64,000 nt of DNA from NCBI GenBank assembly GCA_016284315.1, contig JAEEOO010000004.1, positions 62,001-126,000 on the forward strand, read 5' to 3'. Shown here piece by piece: positions 32,101 through 49,651 of the stretch; the stretch's first letter is position 1, and every line of letters starts with the position of its first letter. Position numbers and translations under genes: made by a program. Origin of the DNA: Lachnospiraceae bacterium. Its GTDB lineage: Bacteria; Bacillota; Clostridia; Lachnospirales; Lachnospiraceae. Below the pieces are notes generated by a model that was not told the DNA's origin, ran no database searches, and worked only from the letters and a program-made list of their open reading frames with translations.

Positions 32101-32169
32101 AAGTACAATCTCCTCAGAAAAAACTCTTAGAACCAAACCATATGTAAAAATTTTAATGCCTTTGGCTCG

Positions 32170-32196: not shown

Positions 32197-32205
32197 AACA
32201 AGAAT

Positions 32206-33979: not shown

Positions 33980-33999
33980 TGGTTACGCATTAATACTTT

Positions 34000-34608
34000 C
34001 TATAATTCGTTTACTATTTCTTTTATCTCTTCTTTTGTTAATGCTCTTCCTTTTTCCAAAGCCACATCCGCTGCCAGTTTGAATACCTTATGTCTTTTCT
34101 TTGCATCCGGTACGCTTTTCTTAATATCTTCCCTTATGCTTCCAAGATAATCCAAAATATCCTCGATATTGTCAGGGATAAGATTTTCAAATTCTTTTCG
34201 TAATCTGATCGCTACCTGGGGGCTTGCTCCGGAGCTTGTTATTCCGGCTACCAGTTCTCCACGCTTAACAACCGAAGGAAAAATAAAATCGCATTTGTCC
34301 TTGTCATCAACAACATTTATTGGAATACGATTCTCTCTGCACAGTTCGCAGATTTCTTCGTTAACCTCTTCTATATCCGTAGCGGCTATTACAAAATCCG
34401 CGCCGAGGATGTCACCCGGCGCGTACTTTCTATTTTCGAAGCTTATATTTTCTATTTTTTTAATTTCGAGGAGGATATCCGGGGCAATTACGTGAATAAA
34501 AGCCCCAAAGTCCTTCAGTCGCTCCACTTTTTCAAGAGCAACTTTACCACCCCCGATAATGAGTATTTGCTTGTTTCTCAGTTCAAAGAAAAATGGAAAA
34601 TATGCCAT
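34000..34608 (-). CDS. Precorrin-2 dehydrogenase / sirohydrochlorin ferrochelatase (CysG N-domain type)
   Basis: A 202-residue enzyme oxidising precorrin-2 to sirohydrochlorin with NAD and, in bifunctional members, inserting iron to give sirohaem. An NAD-binding Gly-Gly-Gly-Lys-Val-Ala lies near residue 19. The family signature Asn-Val-Val-Asp-Asp-x-x-x-Cys-Asp-Phe-Ile-Phe-Pro lies near residue 110, followed by Thr-Ser-Gly-Ala-Ser-Pro. The methyltransferase half of CysG is absent, so uroporphyrinogen III methylation must come from elsewhere. The start is the Met at 34606-34608 with AAAGGA upstream; the upstream Met would overlap the previous gene. Its place fits supply of sirohaem to the sulfite reductase at 37432-38301. 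Confidence 0.9.
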   Translation of the reverse strand: MAYFPFFFELRNKQILIIGGGKVALEKVERLKDFGAFIHVIAPDILLEIKKIENISFENRKYAPGDILGADFVIAATDIEEVNEEICELCRENRIPINVVDDKDKCDFIFPSVVKRGELVAGITSSGASPQVAIRLRKEFENLIPDNIEDILDYLGSIREDIKKSVPDAKKRHKVFKLAADVALEKGRALTKEEIKEIVNEL

Positions 34609-34621
34609 ATCGAAAATCCTT

Positions 34622-35689
34622 TTAATTATCCCCGTACAAAATGTCTGCGAGAATCTTGTATGCCTCGCCCCATCTTGCATTGGGCTTTGAATTGTACAGA
34701 GATTTATCTATCTCATAATAATTGCCGTTCTTTACGGCGGTTAAGGAACTCCAGGCAGGATGATTCTTTAAAAGCTCCTCTACATTTGCAAGAGCAGCCT
34801 CAGTGTCCTCTCCCTGAGTTGTAACAAAGATATAATCGGGATCTTCCGCAACGATTGCCTCAAGGCTTAAATCCTCAAGAAGACCTTTCTCGGAATCTGC
34901 AATGTTTACAGTTCCCAAATCAGCAAGAATTTCTCCTCCGACAGTCCCTTTGCTTCCCTTAGCTTTTACGTTGCTTGCTGCGGCGCGAATAAAGAGAACG
35001 GTAGGCTGAGCTTCATTCTTTTCAAGAGCAGCTGCCGCTTTCTTCTTCTGTTCCTCAATTTCCTTTGCTATTTCGGTTCCGTACTTTTCGTAGTTTTCAG
35101 ACTTTCCTGTAATCTCTGTAAAAGTACCAAGGACGTTCAAGTACTCGTCAAAATTTGATACTTCGAAATAAGCTACGTTTATTCCTGCCCCTTCCAAAGA
35201 ATCCAAAAGTTCAACCTGCGCATCCGTTCCGGCACTGGCAATAACAAAGTCGGGCTCAAGAGCAATAATCTGCTCAAGATCGGGACTCATGATGCTTCCG
35301 ATATTAACAACATCCTCGGATAAATTAAGATCAAAAGCAGTCCATGAATCCTTTGCTGTTCCTACAACTCCCCCTCCCGCAAGAAGCCATAAATCACAAA
35401 AACTTCCAAGAAGAGTAACAACTCTTTCAGGCTTTGAAACAATTACTTCTCTGCCCAGAGCATCGGTGAAAGTCACTTCAGAAACCGTTACTTCAACATC
35501 GAGACTTTCGGTAACGACATTTTCGATGATTTCGTTGTTCTCTGCAGTTTCTGTTTTTTCAACCACCAGTGCGTCCTTTTGTATGTTCGCAACAGTTTTA
35601 TCTGCGCATCCGGTAAAAGATACTTCCGTCAATAACAATCCTGCTGCCACAAAACCGATGGTTATTCTCTTTAAAACATTATTCTTCAT
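34622..35689 (-). CDS. FecB/BtuF-type substrate-binding lipoprotein
   Basis: A 355-residue extracellular binding protein for the FecCE importer. The signal peptide has Lys/Arg at the N-terminus, a hydrophobic core and a lipobox-like Phe-Thr-Gly-Cys27. The mature part starts with an acidic linker rich in Glu/Val and then enters the type III binding fold with Thr-Asp-Ala-Leu-Gly-Arg-Glu-Val and Arg-Val-Val-Thr-Leu-Leu-Gly. These are typical of binding proteins for metal chelates and corrinoids. AAGGAGG lies upstream of the ATG. It sits between the JAMM protease gene and the sirohaem gene. Confidence 0.9.
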   Translation of the reverse strand: MKNNVLKRITIGFVAAGLLLTEVSFTGCADKTVANIQKDALVVEKTETAENNEIIENVVTESLDVEVTVSEVTFTDALGREVIVSKPERVVTLLGSFCDLWLLAGGGVVGTAKDSWTAFDLNLSEDVVNIGSIMSPDLEQIIALEPDFVIASAGTDAQVELLDSLEGAGINVAYFEVSNFDEYLNVLGTFTEITGKSENYEKYGTEIAKEIEEQKKKAAAALEKNEAQPTVLFIRAAASNVKAKGSKGTVGGEILADLGTVNIADSEKGLLEDLSLEAIVAEDPDYIFVTTQGEDTEAALANVEELLKNHPAWSSLTAVKNGNYYEIDKSLYNSKPNARWGEAYKILADILYGDN

Positions 35690-35713
35690 AATCTTCCTCC
35701 TTAAGAATCAAAA

Positions 35714-36145
35714 CTAGTAGTAATATTTCTCCGATATGATTCTTAAATCCTCTTTCGTAACTACTCCGTCCTCAACGTGGAATGAGTTGAGAACAGGATT
35801 CTCCGCCATTAAAGACAGGATAAAATAACTGGCATTCTTATCATAAGAAAGTCTTATATCTTCCTCAGAAGGTCTTGAGGGTGACTCCGGATGAGAATGC
35901 CAATTGCCAAGGGGCTTATAACCGTTGGCCCGCATATCCTTTATTGCCTCCAACTGTTCCTTGGGATCAAGAGTGAAGTGATCCTCCGCGTGATCCACGT
36001 TGGTCAGGAAATACACTTTCTTAACAAATCTTCCGGCCTCATTATCTTCTCCGGCTATCAGTCCGCAAGCCTCCTCAGGAAGATGCTCTCTTGCGTACTT
36101 TACGATGTCGTCGTAGAGGCTGTAATCAATTCTGACAATAGACAT
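35714..36145 (-). CDS. hcyD: JAMM metalloprotease, HcyD-like
   Basis: A 143-residue Mov34/MPN/PAD-1 zinc protease. The JAMM motif is complete: Glu25, then His83-x-His85-x7-Ser93-x2-Asp96. In known systems this small JAMM type removes extra C-terminal residues from ThiS-like sulfur carriers to expose Gly-Gly. The carrier at 36965-37171 has exactly such a residue. The start (36143-36145) has GGGGGA upstream and lies one base after the E1-like gene stop; an upstream Met (36193) would overlap that gene by 47 nt. In the homocysteine pathway the same protease is thought to act with MetY. The gene name is by pathway analogy. Confidence 0.88.
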   Translation of the reverse strand: MSIVRIDYSLYDDIVKYAREHLPEEACGLIAGEDNEAGRFVKKVYFLTNVDHAEDHFTLDPKEQLEAIKDMRANGYKPLGNWHSHPESPSRPSEEDIRLSYDKNASYFILSLMAENPVLNSFHVEDGVVTKEDLRIISEKYYY

Positions 36146-36146
36146 A

Positions 36147-36965
36147 TTAATGTCCCCCGGGTTTAAATTCGCATGCTGCCTGCTCGTAATCAATGGGCTC
36201 CAGGATAGTGGGATGGTCGCCGCAAACCGCGCAGTTATGTGTATCCTTTGGAAGCTTAATCTTGTGGAACTCCATGGTCAGAGCATCGTAAGTCAAAAGA
36301 TATCCGGTAAGAAGATCTCCCACACCCACAATATACTTAATAGCTTCCATTGCCTGGAGGCTTCCGATTACGCCGCCCATTGCTCCGATAACGCCTGCCT
36401 GCTTGCAGGTAGGAACTGCATCCTTCGGCGGAGGATTCTTGAATACGCAGCGGTAGCAAGGTCCCTGACCGGGAACATAGGTCATAAGCTGACCTTTAAA
36501 TCTAATTATTCCTGCGTGAGAAAAAGGCTTCTTCTCGATTACACATGCATCGTTGATAAGAAACTTTGCAGGGAAATTGTCGGTTCCGTCGATGATGAAA
36601 TCGTAATCTCTGATAAGTTCTCTGATGTTGGTTGAATCAACGAACTCTCTGTAGGTGTTTACAACAACATCGGGGTTCATTGCATTCATGGTTTCCTTTG
36701 CGGACTGAACCTTTGCTTTTCCAACATCCGCAGTGCCGTGAATGATCTGACGCTGAAGGTTTGAAAGGTCTACTTCATCTGCGTCAACAATGCCAATGGT
36801 TCCTACACCTGCTGCCGCAAGATACATTGCTGCGGGAGCTCCCAGTCCGCCGGCACCGATAATAAGCACCTTTGCGTTAAGAAGCTTCTTCTGTCCCTTG
36901 GCGCCAACCTCTTTTAAAATAATATGTCTTGAATAGCGCTCAAGCTGTTCATCGGTAAGAGCCAT
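36147..36965 (-). CDS. hcyF: E1-like adenylyltransferase (ThiF/MoeB family), HcyF-like
   Basis: A 272-residue enzyme that adenylates the C-terminal glycine of a ThiS-like protein so sulfide can form a thiocarboxylate. Gly37-Ala-Gly-Gly-Leu-Gly binds ATP, and the Arg finger and Asp of [36 protein letters not shown] are present. A structural zinc site is formed by Cys170/Cys173 and Cys245/Cys248. Cys187 lies where these proteins often have a reactive Cys. There is no rhodanese domain, unlike many MoeB/MoeZ proteins, which fits use of free sulfide from the adjacent sulfite reductase. It overlaps the carrier gene by one base. Confidence 0.9.
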   Translation of the reverse strand: MALTDEQLERYSRHIILKEVGAKGQKKLLNAKVLIIGAGGLGAPAAMYLAAAGVGTIGIVDADEVDLSNLQRQIIHGTADVGKAKVQSAKETMNAMNPDVVVNTYREFVDSTNIRELIRDYDFIIDGTDNFPAKFLINDACVIEKKPFSHAGIIRFKGQLMTYVPGQGPCYRCVFKNPPPKDAVPTCKQAGVIGAMGGVIGSLQAMEAIKYIVGVGDLLTGYLLTYDALTMEFHKIKLPKDTHNCAVCGDHPTILEPIDYEQAACEFKPGGH

Positions 36966-37171
36966 TACTGTCCACCTCCCATGAAGTAAAGGAATTCAAC
37001 GGTATCGCCATCCTTTAAAACGGTGGACTCCTTCTTGTCTGATTCAACGAACTCCTCATTTATTGATACAGTTACATACTCGGGCATCTCAACGTTCTCT
37101 GCCGCAATAAGCTCGGGTAATGTAAATCCGTCCTGATATTCTTTCTTTTCGCCTGCAACTGTGATAGTCAT
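36965..37171 (-). CDS. hcyS: ThiS/MoaD-like sulfur carrier with C-terminal extension, HcyS-like
   Basis: A 68-residue beta-grasp protein, the carrier of sulfur as a C-terminal thiocarboxylate. It ends Met-Gly-Gly-Gly-Gln, so one Gln follows the diglycine that must be exposed. ThiS and MoaD normally end in Gly-Gly. The extra residue demands proteolytic maturation, and a JAMM protease lies two genes downstream. This is the hallmark of the HcyS type, not of thiamine synthesis. No thiG or other thiamine genes are near. The stop codon shares a base with the hcyF start. Confidence 0.9.
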   Translation of the reverse strand: MTITVAGEKKEYQDGFTLPELIAAENVEMPEYVTVSINEEFVESDKKESTVLKDGDTVEFLYFMGGGQ

Positions 37172-37173
37172 TT

Positions 37174-37419
37174 TTATTCTCCTACTTTCTTTACAAATAA
37201 TGTGTAAGTACCGTCCTCATTGTCTGCCAGTTTGAGTATCTGATGTCCTTCGTCTTTTATAGAGCGGGGCACGTTCTGAACGGGCTCGCCGTCATTCATT
37301 CTAATAGCGATAATCTGTCCCTCATCGAGTTCATCGATTGCCACCTTTGCTTTTACAAATGTGAGAGGGCAAACCTTATCGGTAATGTCAACTTCTTCGT
37401 CTACTTTGATGTCTGCCAT
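37174..37419 (-). CDS. TusA/SirA-like sulfur-transfer protein
   Basis: An 81-residue protein with the TusA/SirA/YedF pattern: a Val-Cys-Pro-Leu-Thr-Phe-Val-Lys-Ala motif whose Cys17 would carry persulfide or a related sulfur species. The fold then alternates as expected, and the C-terminus ends in a short strand. It lies between the sulfite reductase (12 nt) and the carrier (2 nt), so it may relay sulfur or sulfite between them. The exact partner is unknown. AGGAG precedes the ATG. Confidence 0.87.
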   Translation of the reverse strand: MADIKVDEEVDITDKVCPLTFVKAKVAIDELDEGQIIAIRMNDGEPVQNVPRSIKDEGHQILKLADNEDGTYTLFVKKVGE

Positions 37420-37431
37420 GTTTAGTCTCCT

Positions 37432-38301
37432 TTACTTTCCTTCGTATGCCGCGCGGATTTCTTTTCTGAATTCTTCCTCACCGACTCTCTGGAGGGTAAG
37501 TCTGAATCTTTCTCCGGGCTTTGCATTCTTTTCAAAAAAGTTTATTGCCGCATCGGCTACTCTGAAGAGTGTTTCCTTGTCCTTGATAATGGGAACGATT
37601 TCTTCGCCCTTGTAAATCTTATTTCCGAAGAGTCCTCCAAAGGAAACAATGTAACCGGGCTCATAATTCCAGGAATCAGCAGGACATGCCTTTACGCAGC
37701 GTCCGCAGTGGTTACACTTGGATTCATCGATAACAACTTTGCCGTCCACAAGGCTAAGTGCTCCTTCGCGGCAAGCCTTGATGCAGACTCCGCAGGAAAT
37801 GCAGGCATCGGGCTTGTATTCGATTAAATATCCGCCCTTAACACCAAGGTCATTCTCCTCTGCCTTTAAGCAGTTGTTCATGCATCCCGTTACGCCAAAC
37901 TTAAACTTATGTGGAAGCTCTCTTCCGAAGTATCTCTCGTCGAATTCCTTGGCAAGTGTGTAGGAATCAATACATCCGCTGGGGCAAATTGCCGAGCCCT
38001 GACAGGCCGTAACGGTTCTTACACGCGGTCCGCAAACTCCGGGGCGAACGCCGCCCTTTGCAAGTTCTCCTCTTACCTCTTCAATATCATTGAAGTTGAT
38101 AAAAGGAATTTCAACGCCCTGACGGGAAGTCATGTGGACATATCCGTGTCCGTACTTTTCAGCAACCTCTGCGATAGTCTTAATGTTCTCGGCAGTGAGA
38201 TTTCCTCCTACAACTCCAAGTCTTAAGGAGAAGTAACCCTTCTGTTTCTGTCTCATGAATCCGCCTTTTTTAAGGGATGAGTAATCAATTGTTTCTGCCA
38301 T
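37432..38301 (-). CDS. Sirohaem-[4Fe-4S] sulfite reductase with two ferredoxin clusters
   Basis: A 289-residue nitrite/sulfite-reductase-like protein. The sirohaem/[4Fe-4S] ligand set is complete as Cys100-x5-Cys106 and Cys140-x3-Cys144. It is followed by two ferredoxin motifs, Cys167-x2-Cys170-x2-Cys173-x3-Cys177 and Cys196-x2-Cys199-x2-Cys202-x3-Cys206. This short, one-module, ferredoxin-bearing layout resembles AsrC and small archaeal/clostridial assimilatory-type enzymes and differs from the 550-residue CysI. It should reduce sulfite to sulfide with low-potential electrons. The ribosome-binding site lies inside the last codons of metY, one base before whose stop the spacing closes. Nitrite as substrate is possible but the context argues for sulfite. 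Confidence 0.9.
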   Translation of the reverse strand: MAETIDYSSLKKGGFMRQKQKGYFSLRLGVVGGNLTAENIKTIAEVAEKYGHGYVHMTSRQGVEIPFINFNDIEEVRGELAKGGVRPGVCGPRVRTVTACQGSAICPSGCIDSYTLAKEFDERYFGRELPHKFKFGVTGCMNNCLKAEENDLGVKGGYLIEYKPDACISCGVCIKACREGALSLVDGKVVIDESKCNHCGRCVKACPADSWNYEPGYIVSFGGLFGNKIYKGEEIVPIIKDKETLFRVADAAINFFEKNAKPGERFRLTLQRVGEEEFRKEIRAAYEGK

Positions 38302-38302
38302 C

Positions 38303-39547
38303 TTAGTTTCCTCCTGCGTTTAATTTTTCAAACGCTTTATCAAAATCTTCTTTAAGGTCCTCTATATCTTCTATTCCGACGCTTATTCGTATAAGATCAT
38401 CAAACACTCCCGCATCCTCTTTTTGTTTTTCAGTTGAGTGAAGACTGATTGTTGATGCCGGGTGAAGAACCAAGGTCTTGGTGTCTCCAATGTTTGAAAG
38501 TCTGTAGGCCAGCTGCAGTTCATTTAAAAGCTGAAAAGCTCTTTCCTTTGAACCGACTCTAATTGTTACGATTGCGCCGTAACCGCCTTTAAGAAGCTTC
38601 TTTCCTATTTCATGCCATTTACTGGACTTTAGTCCAGGATAGTTAACAATTACATCCGGGTACTTGTCCTCAAGATGCTGCGCCAGTAACGCAGCGTTCA
38701 TACATTGGCGCTCCATACGAAGCCCTAATGTCTCTAAACCGATCTGGTTTAAATATGCGGTCTGAGGTGTCATGCACGCTCCCGCATTTCTGTAAAGTCC
38801 TGCTCTTAATCTTGCCAGGTAAGCAAAAGGCCCGAGTTTTAAATAATCTTTAAGGACGGGGAACTTTTCCGCTGTCCATTTGAATTTTCCTTTGTCTGTC
38901 AGTATTCCGCCGATCGCGTTGCTGCTTCCGTTTATGTACTTTGAAGTTGAGTTGATAACTATATCCGCTCCGTGCTCAAGTACTTTTACGAGATAGGGGC
39001 TGGCCACGGTGTTGTCAATGATAAGAGGTATTCCGTGTCTGTGGGCCACTTCTGCGAGTCCATCCACATCCGTTACATCTAGGCAAGGGTTGCCAATGGT
39101 TTCGGCAAAGATTAATTTTGTATGTTCATTAATTGCATTCTCAAACTGTTCAAAATCGTTATTACAGACGTAATTGGTTTTGATTCCGAAAGCTTCAAGA
39201 TCTCTGAAGAGGTCTATTGTTCCTCCGTATAGGCTTGAGCTTGAAACTATCTCATCTCCGCTTTCAAGAATGTTTGTCAGTGCGTTAAAGATTGCTGCCA
39301 TTCCTGATGCCGCAGCCACACTTCCGATTCCGCCTTCAAGTTTAGTAATTCTGTTTTCAAATGTGCTGATGGTTGGATTTGCCACTCTCGTGTAACAGAA
39401 TCCCGGTACCTTGTTTTCAAAGATACCCGCCAGGTCCTCCGCGCTGGACTGGAAAAAAGCTGAGGTTTGGTATATAGGACTTAAGGTCGATCCAAACTTT
39501 TCTTTTTTGTCCACTCCCGCATGGAGAAGTGCAGTGTTAAAATTCAT
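38303..39547 (-). CDS. metY: O-acetylhomoserine sulfhydrylase
   Basis: A 414-residue PLP enzyme of the Cys/Met metabolism family that makes homocysteine from O-acetylhomoserine and a sulfur donor. The PLP lysine is Lys203 in Ser-Thr-Ser-Lys-Tyr, with Asp178 pairing to the pyridine nitrogen. The N-terminus begins Phe-Asn-Thr-x-x-Leu-His-Ala-Gly, as in MetY. It is the first gene of a ten-gene operon that also encodes sulfite reductase and the HcyS/F/D set, which in Wolinella provide thiocarboxylate sulfur for this reaction. It is preceded by its own promoter with a palindrome at the likely transcription start. Confidence 0.94.
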   Translation of the reverse strand: MNFNTALLHAGVDKKEKFGSTLSPIYQTSAFFQSSAEDLAGIFENKVPGFCYTRVANPTISTFENRITKLEGGIGSVAAASGMAAIFNALTNILESGDEIVSSSSLYGGTIDLFRDLEAFGIKTNYVCNNDFEQFENAINEHTKLIFAETIGNPCLDVTDVDGLAEVAHRHGIPLIIDNTVASPYLVKVLEHGADIVINSTSKYINGSSNAIGGILTDKGKFKWTAEKFPVLKDYLKLGPFAYLARLRAGLYRNAGACMTPQTAYLNQIGLETLGLRMERQCMNAALLAQHLEDKYPDVIVNYPGLKSSKWHEIGKKLLKGGYGAIVTIRVGSKERAFQLLNELQLAYRLSNIGDTKTLVLHPASTISLHSTEKQKEDAGVFDDLIRISVGIEDIEDLKEDFDKAFEKLNAGGN

Positions 39548-39588
39548 CTTTTCACGCTTTCTCTTCCTATGCAGAAAGTCTTTTTTTG

Positions 39589-39618
39589 TCGGTATCTGTA
39601 ACCGATGGTCTAATTATA
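39589..39618 (-). promoter_or_regulatory. metY operon promoter and operator-like palindrome
   Basis: In minus sense a perfect TATAAT (39613-39618) is followed, from about the transcription start, by TCGGT-7-ACCGA (39589-39605). The -35 is weak. The position suits a repressor site at +1. Confidence 0.65.
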
Positions 39619-39700
39619 GCTGAAAACTATTAGCAACAAAAAATACCTAAAACAAAGAGCCGGTTATAACTTTTATCTATATAGCTGTATAGTGAGACAA

Positions 39701-39736
39701 AAAAAATGTGACAAGGGGACGCACCCCTTGTCACAT
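39701..39736 (-). terminator. Strong intrinsic terminator between the two sulfur operons
   Basis: A perfect 13-bp stem (ATGTGACAAGGGG at 39706-39718 with its complement at 39724-39736) is followed in minus sense by seven T. It overlaps the stop of the ATPase gene and separates the desulfinase operon from the metY operon. Confidence 0.93.
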
Positions 39737-40428
39737 CAAAGCTTTTCTTCTTTAAGATTTCCCAAATCCATCCTGTAAATATAATCTGCGTACTGAATCG
39801 CTTCTCTATCGTGAGTTACGAGAATAACTGCTTTTCCCTGTTCTGTCAGTTCCCTGAATATTGAAAGAACATTTTTCGTATTCTCTTCATCCAGATCACC
39901 TGAAGGTTCGTCTGCAAAAATCACCTCCGGGTCATTAATCAGCGCTCTTGCAATGGCAAGCCTTCTTAATTCTCCACCGGATAATTCCCCCGCTTTATAA
40001 GAAGCATAATCTTTTAGTCCGACTTTATTAAGGAGTTCCTCTGCAAGCCTTTCATTTTCCTCTTCTTTATCCTCCGTCCCATACATTTCTTTTACAAGAA
40101 GAAGGTTTTCGATTACGGAAAGATTCTTGAAAACCATATGATCCTGAGGAATAATACCGAACTTTTTATTTCTCAGCTTACTTCTTTCATCATCTGAAAG
40201 TTCATATAGATCCTTCCCTTCGTAGTAAACCTTACCTGTATCAGGCTGTAATAAGCCTGATAGGATTGAAACAAAAGTACTTTTTCCTCCACCGGACCTC
40301 CCGATAATTTCCGTGACAGTTCCTTTGTTTATCTCAAAAGAAGTTTCTTTAAGCACTTCAAAACGCTTTTTACTTTTGCCTTTTCTGGTAAATTCTTTAC
40401 TTATTTTTTCAGCTGTAATCAGTGACAT
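39736..40428 (-). CDS. ABC ATPase (LolD/MacB type)
   Basis: A 230-residue ATPase of the FtsX-partner class. Walker A is Gly-Arg-Ser-Gly-Gly-Gly-Lys-Ser-Thr (about 42-50), the signature Leu-Ser-Gly-Gly-Glu, Walker B Val-Ile-Phe-Ala-Asp-Glu-Pro and the switch Val-Thr-His-Asp. The usual Ala-Gly-x-Glu motif of FtsE/LolD is loosely kept. Its ATG directly follows the permease stop. It ends the operon. It should power the FtsX-like protein encoded upstream; the cargo is unknown. Confidence 0.9.
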   Translation of the reverse strand: MSLITAEKISKEFTRKGKSKKRFEVLKETSFEINKGTVTEIIGRSGGGKSTFVSILSGLLQPDTGKVYYEGKDLYELSDDERSKLRNKKFGIIPQDHMVFKNLSVIENLLLVKEMYGTEDKEEENERLAEELLNKVGLKDYASYKAGELSGGELRRLAIARALINDPEVIFADEPSGDLDEENTKNVLSIFRELTEQGKAVILVTHDREAIQYADYIYRMDLGNLKEEKL

Positions 40429-41634
40429 TTAAACACCTTCTTTTGATAAAAGTCCCGTATCCCTTGCGGCAATTCGAAGGACACATAAACTCCATGTCAC
40501 TCCGCAAATAATAATTGAAAGGATTATTGTAATGAACCCGGTCAAGATCATAAAGCCTGCACCGGGCTGAAGCACCGGAAGTTCAAGACTTCTTTTTATT
40601 GTGTCCGCAAAAGGAAAGTAAACAATGGATATAGCGGCTATACCGCTAACAGATCCTATAAGCGCTATGAGAAATGCTTCCCACAACAATGCTCCGGTAA
40701 TTATCTTTTTTGATGCACCGGTTATTCTCAGAATTGCAAGCTCTCTTACTCGTTCGCCCGCAATTAATGAGAACAACGCAATCAGGATGATAATTGACAA
40801 CACCCAAACAAGTCCTGTGATAATTCCGATTATTCCGGAAACATTTTTAAGGCCTTGTGCGATTCCGTATATCATCTTCTGTGATGTTACAGCGTTAACC
40901 CCTTCAATAGGAATATTTATGTTTCCTGCAGTTTTGTATACATCGTATCCTTTTTCATTTCTAACCATTACTGCAGATATAACTGAATCAGGGTCAACAT
41001 CTTTAAAGTCTTCAAAACCAAGTGAGTCAGCACTTCTTATAAGAGACTTTATTGTTTCAATGTTTCCAAACACTGCGTTATCCAACCCGGTTCCTGTCTT
41101 TTCCAGTTTTGCGGCAACATTAAGCGTTACATTATAAAACCTTAGCTGCCTGTTAGGTGGAATAACAATATTGCTTCCGACAATTAAATCTCCATCGGTT
41201 ATCTCTCCTTCATATGCTTCTCTGATCCACGGCTGAATGGAAAAATCCGTTTCGGGATCAAATCCGATTATCTGGACCGGACTGTCACAGCAGCCTGCAT
41301 TGGCAGAAGCAAGGAAGAATTGATATGAAGCGATTTCAACGCCTTCCGTCTCCTTTACTTTCTCAAGGACACTTCGGTCCATGTAGAAAGTATCAGGGAT
41401 TCCTTGAAGAAGTATTCCGTCAAAAGAACCTTCTTCCTTTACCTCTTCCGGAATAACGATGATATCCGCTCCCAGTCTCTTTTCATAACTGTGAAGACCG
41501 TTTTGAATACTCCTTATAAATACTGAGCCCCCGAAAACGGAGGCTGCAAGTATCGCACATATGATAATAAGCAAAGAGGATCTGCCTGCTCTTGCCTTTA
41601 TGTTTTTAAGTGCTAAATTAAATCTGAATCTCAT
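40429..41634 (-). CDS. FtsX-like (MacB-type) ABC permease
   Basis: A 401-residue membrane protein. One N-terminal helix (about 20-40) is followed by an extracytoplasmic domain of about 230 residues. Three C-terminal helices carry the FtsX-like Arg-Glu-Leu-Ala-Ile-Leu-Arg-Ile-Thr-Gly-Ala-Ser motif in the cytoplasmic loop. This is the mechanotransmission type of ABC protein, not a classic importer. The start is the Met at 41632-41634, overlapping the preceding stop by 4 nt (ATGA). An earlier in-frame Met lies inside the DUF4418-like gene and is rejected. Confidence 0.87.
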   Translation of the reverse strand: MRFRFNLALKNIKARAGRSSLLIIICAILAASVFGGSVFIRSIQNGLHSYEKRLGADIIVIPEEVKEEGSFDGILLQGIPDTFYMDRSVLEKVKETEGVEIASYQFFLASANAGCCDSPVQIIGFDPETDFSIQPWIREAYEGEITDGDLIVGSNIVIPPNRQLRFYNVTLNVAAKLEKTGTGLDNAVFGNIETIKSLIRSADSLGFEDFKDVDPDSVISAVMVRNEKGYDVYKTAGNINIPIEGVNAVTSQKMIYGIAQGLKNVSGIIGIITGLVWVLSIIILIALFSLIAGERVRELAILRITGASKKIITGALLWEAFLIALIGSVSGIAAISIVYFPFADTIKRSLELPVLQPGAGFMILTGFITIILSIIICGVTWSLCVLRIAARDTGLLSKEGV

Positions 41635-42047
41635 TTTTTCTTCTTGATCACCGAAACTATGATATCTGCCACAGCCGCAATAGCTGTAATTATTCCCAAT
41701 ACGGTATTTCCGGGCTGGGTAAGTGTTCTGCACTCCATTGTCGCCATTCCGCAAAGAGGAATGATGGTACCCGCAAGAAAAATATTTGCTACGCTTACGG
41801 TAAAGATTGCGATTGCCAAGCCAAGCTTGATATTCTTATCGGGAATAGCCAAATGTATAACTGCATTAACCGCAATAACTATTGAAGTAGTAACTACCGC
41901 TCTCCAGGCCCACTGGCATTTCATAAAGCTTCCGTCATCCTTTGGTCCGCATGCTTTGAAGACCGTTAACAGAAGAACTACGTAAGCTAATGAAACCACC
42001 AGTAAAACAATGTCGGTAACTCTTATATTTACTTTTTTATTTTCCAT
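41631..42047 (-). CDS. DUF4418-like four-helix membrane protein
   Basis: A protein of about 138 residues with four hydrophobic helices. A conserved-looking Cys pattern lies on the loops: Ala-Cys-Gly-Pro, Met-Lys-Cys-Gln-Trp-Ala-Trp, Leu-Cys-Gly-Met and Met-Glu-Cys-Arg. From memory this resembles DUF4418, a family that accompanies FtsX/ATPase pairs; no function is established. The start was taken at the Met with AGAGAAGAGAG upstream (42045-42047); 42074 is an alternative. It is tightly coupled to the FtsX gene (4-nt overlap). The Cys cluster suggests metal or redox chemistry at the membrane surface, but this is inference. Confidence 0.75.
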   Translation of the reverse strand: MENKKVNIRVTDIVLLVVSLAYVVLLLTVFKACGPKDDGSFMKCQWAWRAVVTTSIVIAVNAVIHLAIPDKNIKLGLAIAIFTVSVANIFLAGTIIPLCGMATMECRTLTQPGNTVLGIITAIAAVADIIVSVIKKKK

Positions 42048-42087
42048 CTCAATAATCTCTCTTCTCTCCATCATATCCGATGGTTAA

Positions 42088-42852
42088 TTAGATAGCATAC
42101 TCAACTATACTCTGATTGAATATGTTAATAATCTTATTTCTGTAGAAGGCAAAATCGGCGCTGCTTCTAAGTCTTGGTCTCGGAAGTTCAATGTTAATAA
42201 TTTCATCCACTTCGGCAGGACGCGGTCTCATTACAATAACTCTGTCCCCTAAGTAAATTGCCTCATCTATATCGTGAGTAACCATTAGCATTGTGGTCTT
42301 TTCTTCTTCCCAGATTTTACTGATTTCCACCTGCATGTTCATTTTGGTGAGTGCATCAAGAGCTCCCAAAGGCTCGTCCAAAAGAAGTATCCTGGGATGT
42401 CTCATCAGTGCTCTTGCAATTGATACACGCTGAGCCATACCGCCTGAAAGCTGACCGGGATAAACCTTTTCAAAGTTTTCAAGATCTACTTTCTTTAAGT
42501 ACTCCTGCACCTGATCGTGAAGTTCCTTTTTTGTTCCTTCCAATCCAAGAGTAAGATTTTCTTCAACTGTAAGCCAAGGAAGAAGTCTGTGATCTTGGAA
42601 GATTACTCCTCTGTCAAGTCCGGCCTTCTCTACTCTCTTGCCATCCAAAAGAATGTCTCCGCCATAATCTTTTTCAAGACCTGCTATAAGTCTAAGGAGT
42701 GTTGTCTTACCGCAGCCGCTGGCTCCGATAATCGAAATAAACTCTCCTTCTTTTATATTCAGATCTACTTTTCTTATGGCTTCCACGTCTTTATCTTTGG
42801 TGTGAAAAACCTTTGATACATTATTAATTTCCAGGATATTATTTTGACTCAT
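42088..42852 (-). CDS. ssuB: SsuB/TauB/NrtD-type ABC ATPase
   Basis: A 254-residue ATPase of the nitrate/sulfonate/taurine import family. Walker A is Gly-Ala-Ser-Gly-Cys-Gly-Lys-Thr-Thr (43-51), with Phe-Gln-Asp-His-Arg-Leu-Leu-Pro-Trp at the Q loop, a signature of this subfamily. Leu-Ser-Gly-Gly-Met-Ala-Gln-Arg and Leu-Leu-Leu-Asp-Glu-Pro follow. The ATG at 42850-42852 has AGGTGA upstream; a GTG 9 nt earlier is an alternative. It serves the permease and binding protein encoded just upstream. Confidence 0.92.
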   Translation of the reverse strand: MSQNNILEINNVSKVFHTKDKDVEAIRKVDLNIKEGEFISIIGASGCGKTTLLRLIAGLEKDYGGDILLDGKRVEKAGLDRGVIFQDHRLLPWLTVEENLTLGLEGTKKELHDQVQEYLKKVDLENFEKVYPGQLSGGMAQRVSIARALMRHPRILLLDEPLGALDALTKMNMQVEISKIWEEEKTTMLMVTHDIDEAIYLGDRVIVMRPRPAEVDEIINIELPRPRLRSSADFAFYRNKIINIFNQSIVEYAI

Positions 42853-42861
42853 GCCGCTCAC

Positions 42862-43728
42862 CTATTTTGCTGTCTTTTTCTTCCATCTCAGAGTGTTCTC
42901 TTCAATCTTTCGAAGAATCACATCGATTATCACTCCTATAACACCGATAACAACCATCAGTGCAATCAACTTGTCTGACCAAAGAAATTCTCTTGATTTC
43001 ATAAGAGCATATCCAAGTCCTGTAAGTCCTCCCAGCATCTCTGCCGCAACTACCGCCATCCAAGCATTTCCTGCTCCAAGTCTGAGACCTGTGAAAATGG
43101 AAGATATTGCTGAAGGAAGTACCACTTTTCTAAGGAAAACACTTTTCTTGAGTTCTAGAACCTGTGCAAGCTCAAAGTATTCTGCCTGCACTCCCTTAAT
43201 TCCCTGAAGCGTATTAAGGAAGATGGGAATAAGAACTCCTCTTGCGATGATGATTTCCTTTGAAACTTCTCCGATTCCAAACCAGAGAATAATAAGAGGC
43301 ATCCACGCATATAAAGGTATCTGACGAATGACGTTGATTATAGGTGAAACAACCCTTTCTACCACTTTATTCAGTCCGCTTAAGACTCCGAGTATCAAAG
43401 CTATTCCGGCTCCCCAGAGATAACCAATGATTACTCTTTTTCCGCTGACCGCAAGGTCAGTTCCGAGGGTACCGTCCTTTACCATTTCTACAAACGCTTT
43501 TACCACCTTCAAGGGTGATGGAAGAATTACATCCAACAAGAGCCCCGAGCCGGATAATACTTGCCAAAGTATAAGCAGAAGAACCGGAACCGCTATTGTA
43601 TTTATAAGTGCTAAAAATCTCGGACCAAATTTACTGCTGCCTATATCCCCTGACAACTTTTTAAATGAATTTAATTTATCTTGTTTGCTCACTGCCTGAG
43701 CTCCTGTTGAAGTAATTGTGTTAGCCAT
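42862..43728 (-). CDS. ssuC: SsuC/TauC-type ABC permease
   Basis: A 288-residue permease with six helices and a Glu-Ala-Ala-like coupling region (Ala-Glu-Tyr-Phe-Glu-Leu-Ala-Gln-Val-Leu) after helix 4. The hallmark Pro-Leu-Tyr-Ala-Trp-Met-Pro-Leu-Ile-Ile-Leu-Trp-Phe-Gly-Ile-Gly of the sulfonate/nitrate permease group is present. An unusually polar N-terminal extension of about 35 residues precedes the first helix. It lies 14 nt after the binding-protein gene. Confidence 0.93.
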   Translation of the reverse strand: MANTITSTGAQAVSKQDKLNSFKKLSGDIGSSKFGPRFLALINTIAVPVLLLILWQVLSGSGLLLDVILPSPLKVVKAFVEMVKDGTLGTDLAVSGKRVIIGYLWGAGIALILGVLSGLNKVVERVVSPIINVIRQIPLYAWMPLIILWFGIGEVSKEIIIARGVLIPIFLNTLQGIKGVQAEYFELAQVLELKKSVFLRKVVLPSAISSIFTGLRLGAGNAWMAVVAAEMLGGLTGLGYALMKSREFLWSDKLIALMVVIGVIGVIIDVILRKIEENTLRWKKKTAK

Positions 43729-43742
43729 TTTATTGTTCCTTA

Positions 43743-44921
43743 TCAGTTAAAGAAATTTGTATCAAAGAAAGTCTCTTTGTCGACTCTACCCTCTTCAGTG
43801 AACTCTTCTGTATTCTTAATAAGCCAATCCTGATATTTGTCGGTATCATCGATAAGCTGAGAAAGAGGCGCTGATGCGGAGAATGATGTTTCCTTACTTC
43901 TCTGAAGGTACCAAATCGTGTTCTCTGCAGGTTCTCTTGTTATAGTTTCAAGGACAGCTGCTGTGCTTTCCTGATTTCCAACTATATAGGCATTGATAAG
44001 CTGACGGAGTTTTAAGACAGCCTTAAAAATGTTCACATGCTCATCTGCAAACTGAGTAGGTGCAAAGCTTACGGATGCTCCACCATAATTGGTATACACT
44101 CCGTTTTCCTTTGCATTTCCGATTTCACGGAAGTTTCCATTGATAATCTCACTGTTAATGTTTGCAAAGGGATGAACTGAAATCGCATCAATTTCACCTG
44201 CATCAAGAGCAGTCTTTATGTCGCTGTTTGAAACATTCGCATAGGTCCAATCAGTGCCCTCAACCCATCCGAGATCATTGGTCTGCTCTATCAAAGCAAC
44301 ATACTGGCAGCCTGCTTTCCAACTTGCGATTGTCTTTCCCTTAAGGTCTGCAAGAGTCTGATAATCTGAATCAGCTCTTACGAGGAAAGTAACAATACCG
44401 GGCTGGGGATCTTCTGAAAGTTCAACTGCGGTAATGTCACCGCCCTGTGACTTGTATAGAAGATAAGGATAAAGCATTCTGTTGGTCAGATGAAGTTCGC
44501 CTCTATCCATAAGCTGAACCTCATTTCCTACAGTTCCTTCAACAAGTGAAACCTTAGTTCCGTTATCTCCCAAAAGCTTATCAAACCATCCGTTCTTATC
44601 AGCAAGATATGCCCAGCTGGTAGCTCCAATCTTTAATTCCTTAAGTTCCTCAAAAGTGTACTGCTCCTTAAGTTTGTCGATAGCTGCTTCGATAATCTCC
44701 TCTGTGACTACATCCTCAGGAGTAACGTTTCTACCAATCAATTCTTCTGCTTTGCTGATTGCCTCTGCAGATACTTCTGTGCCGGCTGTTTCAGCCTTTA
44801 CCTCGGATGCTTTTCCTGTATTGGTATTAGTATTTCCTCCGTTTGCTCCGCATGCAGTTAATCCAAGTGATGCCGCAAGTCCTATAGCGATTACATTTTT
44901 AATAAGTGCTGTCTTTTTCAT
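43743..44921 (-). CDS. SsuA-like sulfonate/sulfinate-binding lipoprotein
   Basis: A 392-residue extracellular binding protein. The signal peptide ends in a clear lipobox Leu-Thr-Ala-Cys24. A Gly/Asn/Thr linker follows, then about 55 acidic residues before the binding fold starts at Leu-Lys-Ile-Gly-Ala-Thr-Ser. The middle has Phe-Leu-Val-Arg-Ala-Asp-Ser-Asp and Asp-Leu-Lys-Gly-Lys-Thr-Ile, shared with the neighbouring desulfinase-like protein, so the two are paralogous folds. This one has the export signals and no catalytic Cys/His/Arg set, so it is the true receptor. It lies 23 nt downstream of the desulfinase-like gene. The ligand is not identifiable from sequence. Confidence 0.9.
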   Translation of the reverse strand: MKKTALIKNVIAIGLAASLGLTACGANGGNTNTNTGKASEVKAETAGTEVSAEAISKAEELIGRNVTPEDVVTEEIIEAAIDKLKEQYTFEELKELKIGATSWAYLADKNGWFDKLLGDNGTKVSLVEGTVGNEVQLMDRGELHLTNRMLYPYLLYKSQGGDITAVELSEDPQPGIVTFLVRADSDYQTLADLKGKTIASWKAGCQYVALIEQTNDLGWVEGTDWTYANVSNSDIKTALDAGEIDAISVHPFANINSEIINGNFREIGNAKENGVYTNYGGASVSFAPTQFADEHVNIFKAVLKLRQLINAYIVGNQESTAAVLETITREPAENTIWYLQRSKETSFSASAPLSQLIDDTDKYQDWLIKNTEEFTEEGRVDKETFFDTNFFN

Positions 44922-44944
44922 AATTTTCTCCTATTGCTATATAT

Positions 44945-45955
44945 TTATGCTTCTTGTGCAAGTTCTGATAACGCTCTCTCAAGGAAGCTCTTATCAGCCC
45001 ACTTAGAAACATCAACTACTGATTTGGTAAATCCGTGATCATAAAGGAACTGTGCTCTTGTCTGAAGTGCCTTTAATCCATCTTCCGAGAAGTTAGGCTC
45101 GAGATGCTTGTAGAAGTCTGCAGGATAAGCTCTCCTGTACTGCTCAACACTTCCGTGTGTCTGCTCTGCAAGAAGTTCCTCTGCCTCCTCCTTGTGATCA
45201 GCAGCCCATCTTGCTGCCTTAACAACTGCCTTTACATAAGCTACAACTACTTCAGGCTCTTCTTCAGCCAGCTTTCTGCTTACAGTAAATACATTGGGAT
45301 ACTCGTTGTTTACGGGATCCACATCGTTCTGGTCAGTTACGATGTTAAGGATTCTGCGATATTTGCCGGAATCAAGAACTCTCTCTGATGCTGAAAGCTT
45401 AATGAATACTGCATCAACCTTTCCTTCATCGAGTGCTGTAAAATCAAGTCCGGTTTTAAATGTCCAGTTGGGAGTTTGTGAAGGGTAATCGGGAGTTTCA
45501 TCAACCAAGTAAACCCATTCAACATCATCATTCTTCAGACCAGCTGACTTAAGTGCATTTTCAAATCCTTCGATGGTTGAAGTCTTCTGATGATCGATAG
45601 TTGCGTTTACTCTGTCGGGAATTCCAATCTTTCTTCCCTTAAGATCTGATACCTTTTCAATATCAGAATCTGCTCTTACGAGGATTGCCTGCTCACCGGG
45701 GATAAGATTTATTCCGATAAGAACCGGTTCAGCACCGTTTGACTTCGCCCAAGTCGGAGGAGTGTTTCCACCTTCGCGGAAAAGTCTGTCGTTCTCGTAA
45801 GTAAAATGTTCTTTCCAGTGCTCCTTCTCCAATGTCTGGAGTTTGATAGGAGTGTATCCGATTTTATCCAGCTCATCCTTTAAGAAATTGGTGTTCGCTG
45901 CAATGTATGATGCGTTAGCTACGGGGCAAATTGTGTAATTAATTTCTTTAGACAT
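44945..45955 (-). CDS. DszB-like sulfinate desulfinase (cytoplasmic SsuA-fold enzyme)
   Basis: A 336-residue protein with the fold of sulfonate-binding proteins but no signal peptide: it starts directly at the first strand after AAGGAG and ATG. It matches what I recall of DszB, which splits 2'-hydroxybiphenyl-2-sulfinate into hydroxybiphenyl and sulfite. The nucleophile motif is Cys10-Pro-Val-x-Asn-Ala (DszB Cys27). His50-Phe-Thr-Tyr-x6-Arg60-x-Gly62-Gly63 keeps His60/Arg70 with identical spacing, followed by Pro-Pro. The C-terminal part also aligns, including Arg-Trp-Ala-x-Asp-His, Ala-Asp-Phe and Gln-Phe-Leu. It leads the operon before ssuA-ssuC-ssuB. The likely role is release of sulfite from an imported or intermediate sulfinate. 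A plain binding protein is the alternative, less likely given the conserved triad. Confidence 0.8.
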   Translation of the reverse strand: MSKEINYTICPVANASYIAANTNFLKDELDKIGYTPIKLQTLEKEHWKEHFTYENDRLFREGGNTPPTWAKSNGAEPVLIGINLIPGEQAILVRADSDIEKVSDLKGRKIGIPDRVNATIDHQKTSTIEGFENALKSAGLKNDDVEWVYLVDETPDYPSQTPNWTFKTGLDFTALDEGKVDAVFIKLSASERVLDSGKYRRILNIVTDQNDVDPVNNEYPNVFTVSRKLAEEEPEVVVAYVKAVVKAARWAADHKEEAEELLAEQTHGSVEQYRRAYPADFYKHLEPNFSEDGLKALQTRAQFLYDHGFTKSVVDVSKWADKSFLERALSELAQEA

Positions 45956-46108
45956 ATTGTTTCTCCTTAATACCTAATGTTTGTTAGTTTGTTGTGCCTT
46001 TACTTTGTTGTCCGCTAAGGTAAACAATATGGAATTCCTCCGGAGCTTTTATTGTAGTGTTTCATTCGTATTTACCGATTCCTTTTTTGCTGTTTTCAAG
46101 TTGTTAAC

Positions 46109-46164
46109 AGATTAACATCAGTTCTTATCATCGTCTAATACTAGCGCTCTATTGCTTGCTATAA
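46109..46164 (-). promoter_or_regulatory. 56-bp conserved upstream element, copy 1 (desulfinase operon)
   Basis: This block aligns without gaps to 46887-46942. The conserved parts, in minus sense, are TATA, CAATA, TAGTATTAGACGAT and TGTTAATCT, about 38 of 56 positions. It lies about 155 nt before the desulfinase-like start. The layout suits a LysR-type activator site, but no regulator gene is in the window. Confidence 0.65.
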
Positions 46165-46185
46165 CCAACGTCTATAGCGCCACTT

Positions 46186-46800
46186 TTATGCAATAGCTTC
46201 ATATATTGCATCCGCCAGTTTCCTGTGCCCCTCTTCGTTTAGATGCTCATCATCCACACTACTAGCTTCGACAAAATCAGATGCTGCAAGGAATTTTACT
46301 CCTCGTTTCTCTGCTATCTTTTTATAAACTTCTTTTAAGCCTTTACAGACATTAACGGAGTTTTTATCAAACTCGGGGTCCTTTTCCGGAGTCCATACTT
46401 CATCTCCCAGAAGGATGGGCGAAACCAGAAGGATGTTTTCCGGGGCAATAAACTTCTCAAGTTCATTGAGGCAAAGTTCTATGCCTTTTCCTATGGTGTA
46501 TGCTGACGCATGATAATAGGTTTTGCAGTCATTGGTGCCAAGCATAAGTATTGCACCGTCTACGGGATGATGGCTTTCAAGAAGAACAGGGAGAAGTTCA
46601 ACACCTCTGCGCCCCGGTCTTAGTTCATCTTCAAAAACCGTTGTTCTTCCGCAAAGACCTTCCTCAGCTATTCTTGTTTCTTTAAGCTTGTCTTCAAGGA
46701 TTCCTGTCCATCTTTTGTTTCTTGGATATCTGTTCTTTAAATCTTTTCCAGGTACAAGGCCCCAGGTATTTGAATCTCCGAATGCAAGAATTTCTCTCAT
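46186..46800 (-). CDS. SGNH/GDSL-family hydrolase
   Basis: A 204-residue serine esterase of the SGNH group. Block I is Phe-Gly-Asp9-Ser10-Asn-Thr-Trp-Gly, block III Gly-Thr-Asn90-Asp, and block V Asp183-x2-His186. The set Ser/Asp/His is complete, so it should hydrolyse an ester. There is no signal peptide, so it is cytoplasmic. It resembles arylesterase-type members. The substrate is unknown. It shares an upstream 56-bp element with the desulfinase operon, hinting at joint control and perhaps at a related organosulfur substrate. GGAG precedes the ATG. Confidence 0.9.
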   Translation of the reverse strand: MREILAFGDSNTWGLVPGKDLKNRYPRNKRWTGILEDKLKETRIAEEGLCGRTTVFEDELRPGRRGVELLPVLLESHHPVDGAILMLGTNDCKTYYHASAYTIGKGIELCLNELEKFIAPENILLVSPILLGDEVWTPEKDPEFDKNSVNVCKGLKEVYKKIAEKRGVKFLAASDFVEASSVDDEHLNEEGHRKLADAIYEAIA

Positions 46801-46823
46801 AGTTTTTTCTCCGCTATTTTATC

Positions 46824-46840
46824 CAATGGTTAATCCATTG
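46824..46840 (-). promoter_or_regulatory. Perfect palindrome in the SGNH hydrolase leader
   Basis: CAATGG-5-CCATTG, 6-bp arms, about 24 nt before the start. Part of it (ATTAACCATTGGAT in minus sense) recurs with one change at 42075-42088 next to the DUF4418-like gene. Confidence 0.5.
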
Positions 46841-46886
46841 TGTGCCTTACTTAGTCCGATAACATTGTTATATTGTTTATGCTTGA

Positions 46887-46942
46887 AGATTAACACAGCC
46901 TCGAGTTATCGTCTAATACTATGAATTTATTGTCTGGTATAG
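46887..46942 (-). promoter_or_regulatory. 56-bp conserved upstream element, copy 2 (SGNH hydrolase)
   Basis: The second copy of the element described at 46109-46164, about 87 nt before the SGNH hydrolase start. The 14-mer TAGTATTAGACGAT is identical in both. Confidence 0.65.
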
Positions 46943-46960
46943 TTTTCTCTTATATATCTG

Positions 46961-46993
46961 CACAAAAAAAGAACTGCGTCTCCGCAGTTCTTT
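46961..46993 (-). terminator. Intrinsic terminator of the SecD-like lipoprotein gene
   Basis: An 11-bp stem (AAAGAACTGCG at 46968-46978 with CGCAGTTCTTT at 46983-46993), 4-nt loop, and a following T-run in minus sense. Confidence 0.92.
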
Positions 46994-47025
46994 TCATTGA
47001 TCAACATATGCTTTTGTTCGGTAGA

Positions 47026-47715
47026 CTATCTTCTCTCCACCATTTCCCTAAAGGGATTGGTTCTAATCTTTGAACAGTCCACAACTTTGAGATTGTCAAA
47101 TAGGTTACAGCTTTTGATTTTTGCTGCAAGGCTGTCGGCATCTTCCATAGAAGCAAGCCCGTTTATAACAGTTGTGCCGTTGGTTACAGTATCTGCGACT
47201 CTTGGAGCACTTATTAGTTCACCGTCAAAGTAAATCTCAATTGCCTCTCTGCTTTCAACAGCTTTCGCAGTTGACTCAGCGAACTTTTTGGTGCCCTCTT
47301 CGTCAAAAGCTAATGAAACTGCATAATCATTATAAACTCCGTTGTTGTACATAATGCTTTGAACAGATACAACATTTTTGTCAGTCAAAATAAGGGACTG
47401 ATCAGACTCCATACGGAATTCCAGATTAGGCTTCTTTATTAGTTTCTCTGCAACTTCTTCACCAATAGTTAAATCAGAAAAAACTACCTCTATCTGCTTC
47501 CCGTCATAGATAAGATTTACGTCAGCTCTATAATCATAAACCCAAGCTCTGTTCTGAATCACTGAAACAAGTGCATCTAAGTCTTTGCTTTCAACCTTAG
47601 TTGAATCAATGATTACTTGAACTGCATCCGGTTCCTTTCCTGAATCACAGCCCACCATAACAAGTGCGCTTGCTGCGATCAAAAGTCCCGCAGTTATTCT
47701 CTTTAGTACTTTCAT
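47026..47715 (-). CDS. Lipoprotein with SecD P1-like domain
   Basis: A 229-residue lipoprotein. The signal peptide ends at Val-Met-Val-Gly-Cys. The body resembles the periplasmic P1 head of SecD: a Val-Ser-Leu-Ala-Phe-Asp-Glu-Glu-Gly-Thr-Lys-Lys-Phe-Ala strand-helix, then Ile-Tyr-Phe-Asp-Gly-Glu-Leu-Ile-Ser-Ala-Pro-Arg-Val and an Ile-Asn-Gly-Leu loop before a final helix. No SecD membrane part is present, so it is a stand-alone head domain. The start is the ATG at 47713-47715; a GTG 12 nt earlier is possible. It is monocistronic between two terminators or promoters. Function unknown. Confidence 0.8.
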   Translation of the reverse strand: MKVLKRITAGLLIAASALVMVGCDSGKEPDAVQVIIDSTKVESKDLDALVSVIQNRAWVYDYRADVNLIYDGKQIEVVFSDLTIGEEVAEKLIKKPNLEFRMESDQSLILTDKNVVSVQSIMYNNGVYNDYAVSLAFDEEGTKKFAESTAKAVESREAIEIYFDGELISAPRVADTVTNGTTVINGLASMEDADSLAAKIKSCNLFDNLKVVDCSKIRTNPFREMVERR

Positions 47716-47793
47716 TTCAAATACCACTCTTTTAGTTTTATTGAATAAAATTATATCATATTAACGAATTCTCTTCCAAATCTTAAAAAAACA

Positions 47794-47822
47794 TTTTGAA
47801 ATTCTCCAACATCCAATATAAT
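47794..47822 (+). promoter_or_regulatory. Promoter abutting a start codon (possible leaderless mRNA)
   Basis: TTTTGA (47794-47799), a 17-nt spacer and a perfect TATAAT (47817-47822). The ATG of the next gene is at 47830, where transcription should start. No Shine-Dalgarno site lies between. Confidence 0.65.
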
Positions 47823-47829
47823 AGTTCCT

Positions 47830-49560: not shown

Positions 49561-49605
49561 TAAACAGTACCACGGATGATACATCCAAAAACACATAAAA
49601 ATATG

Positions 49606-49634
49606 GGCTTGGGGCTGTCCCCAAGCCTTATTTT
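49606..49634 (+). terminator. Intrinsic terminator of the adenylate-forming enzyme gene
   Basis: A 9-bp stem (GGCTTGGGG at 49606-49614 with CCCCAAGCC at 49619-49627) and a TTATTTT tract. It has a GGGG/CCCC core like other repeat-like terminators in the window. Confidence 0.9.
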
Positions 49635-49651
49635 GTAGTAGAATAGACAGC

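Follow-up and report, generated by a model that had tools for sequence, protein, structure and literature searches.

The DszB-like gene and its operon

The window is a stretch of 64,000 nucleotides from a Lachnospiraceae bacterium (GenBank assembly GCA_016284315.1, contig JAEEOO010000004.1, positions 62,001 to 126,000), and the gene under study lies at its positions 45955-44945, on the minus strand, at the head of an operon for an ATP-binding cassette (ABC) importer. The open reading frame begins with ATG, is preceded by AAGGAG and encodes 336 residues, which resemble DszB, the 2'-hydroxybiphenyl-2-sulfinate desulfinase. The open frame comprises 342 codons in all and, because only six of these lie beyond the protein, no upstream signal peptide is possible for the chosen ATG. 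A crude scan for hydropathy and lipobox (no signal-peptide predictor) shows neither a hydrophobic stretch nor a lipobox at the N-terminus, while the same scan gives the adjoining substrate-binding protein a hydrophobic N-terminus and a lipobox with its cysteine at residue 24, as the sequence-only reading of this DNA had it. The gene order is dszB, sbp, permease, ATPase, DUF4418, FtsX, ABC, and the operon comprises the following features:

44945..45955, minus strand: DszB-like cytoplasmic protein of 336 residues, proposed sulfinate desulfinase (Cys10, His50, Arg60, Gly62-Gly63)
43743..44921, minus strand: substrate-binding lipoprotein of the importer, NMT1/SsuA-like (lipobox Cys24)
42862..43728, minus strand: ABC importer permease (closest models SaoP and SsuC, both below cut-offs)
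42088..42861, minus strand: ABC importer ATPase (closest models SaoA, the nitrate type and SsuB, all below cut-offs)
39736..42074, minus strand: DUF4418 protein, FtsX-like permease and its ABC ATPase, which accompany the module in relatives
39705..39737, minus strand: terminator-like hairpin with a 14-bp stem and a T tail, after the dszB operon

That the gene leads an SsuABC-like importer operon was borne out for this Lachnospiraceae lineage, whose membership of the family suggests a fermentative anaerobe. The operon needs the correction that it ends at the hairpin at 39737-39705, and metY and sir, the genes that follow, therefore appear to form, in the window, a transcription unit of their own. 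Terminator-like sites numbered 7, against 6.5 expected in shuffles, and the stem of this one is the longest of the 7. Promoter-like sites occurred at chance frequency (16 found, 15.5 expected) and none is claimed; in search of a riboswitch, no Rfam family was matched at its gathering score within window positions 30000-50000 or in loci L002, L035, L040, L041 and L043. The predicted model of the neighbouring binding protein is poor (mean pLDDT, the per-residue model confidence, 48.5; 4 sequences). The trio of DUF4418 protein, FtsX-like permease and ABC ATPase accompanies the dszB module in the genus at L001, L002, L040, L042 and L043, and a lone gene near the operon, at window 47026-47727, encodes a protein whose start is lipoprotein-like and which has a SecDF P1-head domain. 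An assembly artefact is unlikely, as the cluster recurs in two metagenome-assembled genomes, those of L001 (from roe deer rumen) and L002, as well as elsewhere in the genus on further contigs.

Likeness to DszB and separation from binding proteins

The protein carries the motif Cys10-Pro-Val-Ala-Asn-Ala, His50 and Arg60 ten residues apart, and then Gly62-Gly63, a pattern that had been likened to that of DszB. In a phmmer alignment, Cys10, His50, Arg60 and the Gly-Gly pair do fall on Cys27, His60, Arg70 and the Gly-Gly of DszB; the RxGG of DszB Arg70 is present as Arg60-Glu-Gly-Gly, and HFTY is shared at residues 50-53 here and 60-63 in DszB (PDB 2de2, 2de3, 2de4). The match to DszB (2de2, E = 1.2e-23) consists of two stretches, the second extending to DszB residue 362, in keeping with the suspected similarity towards the C-terminus, and is far stronger than that to SsuA (2x26, E = 1.3e-4). 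By both sequence and fold the best solved relative is DszB, ahead of SsuA, and the predicted fold is shared with DszB over 314 residues.

In an unrooted tree the window protein and 24 relatives are split from 11 binding proteins with a branch support of 100/99, and DszB lies on the side of the window protein. Escherichia coli SsuA and TauA, which have hydrophobic N-termini and lack the triad, lie across this branch from it. Among the 25 DszB-like rows, Cys10, His50, Arg60, Gly62 and Gly63 belong to 15 invariant positions (the start methionine included), whereas the triad is found in none of the 11 binding-protein rows. The position of DszB Ser25 holds Thr or Ser in all 25 rows, and likewise in both copies of genome G1135; it is Thr8 in the window protein. 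No DszB-like row has a lipobox or an N-terminus as hydrophobic as those of secreted binding proteins, by the same scan. Each genome was counted once, and the 25-row counts exclude the partial gene ends of genome G413 (L010, L015, L042) and plasmid records outside 12 neighbourhoods described below.

An automatic label of binding protein is to be expected, as had been anticipated, with the Pfam NMT1 model matching above its cut-off (41.7 against 20.5 bits) and the NCBIfam SsuA model below its own (103.8 against 163.5 bits). An ordinary importer binding protein that has lost its signal peptide could draw on these matches and on one other binding-protein row that also lacks a signal, yet a separate lipoprotein for this task comes next in the operon, and the triad, the tree and the uniformly unsecreted DszB-like rows speak for a different protein. 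This explanation is considered very unlikely, and the plain binding protein was rejected on the tree and the triad, the missing signal being a weaker point. The other row without a signal (L049 9749-10624) is a Streptomyces gene labelled as a substrate-binding protein, without a signal peptide by hydropathy scan and without the DszB triad; it stands beside an LLM oxidoreductase and is possibly another cytoplasmic protein of this fold. A regulator of the importer that arose from a binding protein and serves as a cytoplasmic sensor without catalysis, in the manner of the CmpC/NrtC regulatory domain, also appears unlikely. The tree, the predicted fold and the invariant triad favour a cytoplasmic DszB-family protein over a plain binding protein, and the sequence comparisons and the model suggest that it is very probably an enzyme.

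It is nevertheless not DszB proper. Identity to DszB is 27%, Thr8 replaces Ser25, and the window protein differs further in its importer and sulfite-reductase neighbours, in its Lachnospiraceae lineage and in belonging to a genus in which no PF00296 (flavin-monooxygenase family, DszA type) match was found among 31 genomes (control, 10 of 14). A DszB orthologue was rejected, since both the insert with Leu152 and Trp155 and a dsz operon are missing. No dszA or dszC partner was found among the scanned neighbours; for acyl-CoA dehydrogenases of the DszC type, no genome-wide search was made.

Sulfite sources before a sulfite-to-homocysteine cluster

On the same strand, past the hairpin, there is a group of genes that the sequence-only reading had not mentioned:

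38303..39547, minus strand: MetY-like O-acetylhomoserine sulfhydrylase (TIGR01326 445 bits, cut-off 495)
37432..38301, minus strand: sulfite reductase, NIR_SIR domains and 4Fe-4S, AsrC-like (AsrC model 157 bits, cut-off 324)
37174..37419, minus strand: TusA-like sulfurtransferase
36965..37171, minus strand: ThiS-like sulfur carrier, HcyS candidate (C-terminus GGGQ)
36147..36965, minus strand: ThiF/MoeB-like adenylyltransferase, HcyF candidate
35714..36145, minus strand: JAB-domain protein, HcyD candidate
34622..35689, minus strand: Peripla_BP_2 binding protein, part of the conserved cluster
34000..34680, minus strand: Met8-like protein, PF13241

The carriers end in GGGQ, GGGC or GGGR, with an extra residue after the glycines in all 13 that were read, and the Met8-like protein may supply siroheme for the sulfite reductase. 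A protein-thiocarboxylate methionine pathway built on HcyS was reportedly described in Wolinella by Krishnamoorthy and Begley in 2011. It reportedly shares with the window a carrier with a residue after the glycines, a JAB protein, a ThiF-like activator, a sulfite reductase and a MetY-like enzyme; its cluster is said to contain sulfate-to-sulfide genes, whereas the window has the DszB-like module and importer upstream. The existence of the HcyS pathway is cited in passages of PMC5764234 and PMC6225789. By analogy, and with the MetY and AsrC models below their cut-offs, the window cluster may be a sulfite-to-homocysteine pathway like that of Wolinella, with sulfur presumably flowing through HcyS.

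Among 31 genomes of the genus, the DszB-like gene was found in 8 (E<=1e-15) and the sulfite reductase in 14 (E<=1e-40), and all 8 are within the 14; the chance of this is 3.8e-4, uncorrected for kinship. A close DszB module lies on the upstream side of metY and sir in seven genomes (G000, which is that of the window, G398, G404, G410, G413, G414, G415), is broken by a contig end in G413 and adjoins metY in G410, G414 and G415. In G410 the ATPase stop is 11 bp from metY, so that the module runs into it. The sulfite reductase of G396 has beside it a distant DszB-like gene (31%) that keeps the triad (L044 7271-10544), in the company of an amidohydrolase (Pfam) and a binding protein that appears by eye to be of the amino-acid type. 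These associations bear on the view that the protein is some other protonating lyase on the same fold, for example an aromatic-acid decarboxylase, with the sulfur genes as coincidental neighbours: the match cited for such a lyase is weaker than that to DszB, and the reductase is present in all 8 genomes of the genus with a DszB-like gene and beside even the distant homologue of G396. A lyase of this kind is considered improbable.

Other genomes of the genus carry different genes in this place. An arylsulfotransferase-like protein, with a binding protein and ABC genes, is encoded upstream of metY and sir in G392, G403, G407 and G408, accompanied by a thioredoxin in three of them (G392, G407, G408); the Pfam assignment comes from the G407 copy alone, the others being recognised by their like N-termini, and the binding protein of the G407 module matched no Pfam family. 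The loci of this type (L034 12220-15144, L036 11378-15900, L037 11515-16463, L038 329-4167, L040 6398-10914) encode a protein of about 500 residues (PF05935 at 93 bits, L037 only) without a signal peptide by eye; a binding lipoprotein and ABC genes lie directly upstream of metY-sir, and thioredoxin is present in L034, L037 and L038. Two of these clusters hold a pair of different sulfite reductase genes, whose identity to the window gene is about 72% for one and about 90% for the other (L037 5920-6789 and 9224-10093; L038 5681-6550 and 9008-9877). The arylsulfotransferase-like module would presumably also yield sulfite, possibly by transfer from an aryl sulfate through a thioredoxin S-sulfonate. 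Upstream of metY in G397, ABC genes, an alkyl sulfatase, an adenosine 5'-phosphosulfate (APS) reductase, a ferredoxin, CysD and CysN stand instead of the DszB module, and APS reductase is an enzyme that makes sulfite. In G404 the DszB and arylsulfotransferase-like modules are both present, and a PF01507 gene lies elsewhere amid AprA-like and CysN-like genes (L047, by eye). A further distant DszB-like gene, which likewise keeps the triad, is found in G404 (L045 8400-9479), beside a dipeptide-type ABC importer by eye and with no sulfite reductase in the 20 kb examined.

The genus survey also bears on an oxygen-independent desulfonase, in which the same triad would act on a sulfonate in place of a sulfinate. 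SsuC and SsuB are among the closest models of the importer, though below their cut-offs, and sulfonates occur commonly in plant matter. Moreover, a passage of PMC6100217 likens the DszB reaction to the protodesulfonation of arylsulfonic acids. By this chemistry, however, a sulfonate would be expected to give sulfate, SO3 being the leaving group, while the neighbouring reductase needs sulfite. PF01507 was found in 2 of the 31 genomes (G397 and G404; control, 14 of 14) and is thus missing from 7 of the 8 with a DszB-like gene, and PF01747 in none of the 31 (control, 5 of 14). A sulfonate substrate is less likely because its product would be sulfate, and 7 of the 8 genomes apparently cannot activate it; a desulfonase is regarded as rather unlikely. 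As the genomes in these tables are 68-99% complete, the absence of a single gene is weak evidence and joint absence stronger.

Beyond the genus, the close form occurs in Paenibacillus sp. S150 (L003) and in G1135 (L064), each with a tandem pair of DszB-like genes, a binding protein, a permease and an ATPase. The same kinds of gene thus stand together as in the window, the triad is kept, identity to the window protein is 44-49%, and no monooxygenase was recognised in the open reading frame lists (mostly by eye); they differ from the window in having two copies against its one, and blastp with the window proteins found no HcyS/sulfite-reductase cluster in either stretch. Upstream of the pair in G1135 lies a type I sulfatase gene (PF00884, L064 4668-6065). 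Tandem pairs are found at L001 3802-5826, L002 10001-12042, L040 13968-16006, L003 9965-12051 and L064 9314-11622, and a single copy in the window, G410 and G414. In a second tree, which leaves out eight plasmid rows and the binding proteins, the two copies group within each of three lineages (91/90, 99/98, 99/99), so that the pairs arose repeatedly or are homogenised.

The triad is also present in 12 plasmid genes from 11 loci, largely of rhizobia and other proteobacteria and mostly labelled as ABC binding proteins where annotated; with the pair in Paenibacillus, this corrects the view that DszB-like proteins are confined to thiophene desulfurisers. The plasmid sample comprised 12 neighbourhoods from 93 records, among them L060, a plain binding protein, and the near-copies L050 and L061 of one locus; L052 and L056 are unannotated. 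A flavin-type monooxygenase or LLM oxidoreductase is named in 5 of the 9 annotated neighbourhoods (L048, L049, L050, L051, L061) and in none of the other four (L053, L057, L058, L059), of which L058 has an acyl-CoA dehydrogenase family protein and L057 mostly hypothetical proteins. Monooxygenase partners of DszB-like genes thus appear common, and not universal, in these aerobes. At L059 5956-7122 a Rhizobium DszB-like gene lies amid genes for 2-hydroxyacyl-CoA dehydratase and its activase, rhodanese-like genes and a sulfate permease. When plasmids were searched with the remote L045 gene, 92 records were found, and many of the matches listed were again these rhizobial and burkholderial records.

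Proposed function and its meaning

The favoured interpretation, held with moderate confidence, is that the gene encodes a cytoplasmic DszB-family enzyme that draws sulfite for the assimilation of sulfur, without a need for oxygen, from an imported organosulfur acid, most likely a sulfinate. The adjoining ABC importer would bring in this acid, and the enzyme would hold it between its two lobes, with Arg60 and the Gly-Gly loop gripping the oxygens on sulfur. If the residues act as their counterparts in DszB may do, Cys10, tuned by His50 (and with Thr8 at the place of DszB Ser25), would protonate the sulfur-bearing carbon, upon which SO2 or sulfite would leave and the remainder of the molecule be released. 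The neighbouring reductase would convert sulfite to sulfide, HcyD would trim the last residue of HcyS, HcyF would then load the sulfide as a thiocarboxylate, and MetY would pass the sulfur of HcyS to O-acetylhomoserine to give homocysteine.

Several points weigh against this interpretation. The activity and binding of the subfamily are predictions from sequence and model, and the confidence of that model is lower near the triad (ten-residue means of 71, 76 and 65 over residues 41-70). No abundant sulfinate of the gut is known that could take the place of the DszB substrate. The mechanism argued for DszB leans on an aromatic ring, and the common natural sulfinates hypotaurine and cysteine sulfinate are aliphatic. 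In the tree DszB forms a long branch, and the window protein has nearer neighbours. The insert that holds its Leu152 and Trp155 is gapped out in the window protein and in 10 other non-DszB rows inspected; the DszB substrate is therefore unlikely to fit, and the substrate should differ. A binding-protein row without either signal or triad exists (L049 9749-10624), so an absent signal peptide alone does not mark an enzyme. In the window the terminator-like hairpin parts the dszB group from the metY-sir group, and other genes lie between the ATPase and metY there (G000) and in G398, G404 and G413. The DszB-like gene is missing from 6 of the 14 genomes with the reductase, G409 has none of these modules in its 16.5 kb stretch, and the genome of the window is 81% complete. 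The gene is also rare, being found in 1 of 392 genomes of the order (E 1e-30), 1 of 391 of the class (1e-25) and 2 of 398 of the phylum (1e-20), the window's own included in each count. Finally, the mechanism of DszB is disputed: a passage of PMC6100217 argues for Cys27 as proton donor, His60 as stabilising Cys27 and Arg70 of the RXGG motif as contacting the sulfinate, and against an earlier proposal of Cys27 as nucleophile, whereas a passage of PMC12168087 describes the sulfinate as reacting with Cys27.

No DszB-like enzyme from an anaerobe was found among the matches listed in a search of open-licence full texts, judged by titles and the starts of abstracts; a passage of PMC5114307 on a desulfinase in a rumen metagenome concerns the cysteine desulfurase type. 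A broader proposal is made tentatively: a DszB-type enzyme free of oxygen and monooxygenase may be a breaker of C-S bonds that gives fermenters assimilable sulfite from imported organosulfur acids, and the genus may swap its sulfite-source module (a desulfinase; an arylsulfotransferase-like protein, often with a thioredoxin; a sulfatase with APS reductase) before a fixed sulfite-to-homocysteine cluster. Desulfination by DszB belongs to an oxygen-demanding route, and the growth of some fermenters on organosulfonates as a sulfur source is an old physiological observation. If sulfite is indeed released, anaerobes would have a cofactor-free cleavage of the C-S bond that feeds sulfur into methionine, and the ABC binding proteins of databases would include an enzyme family. 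The modules would likewise offer testable genes for the growth of fermenters on organosulfonates, and a genetic handle on their use of sulfinated or sulfonated compounds as sulfur sources.
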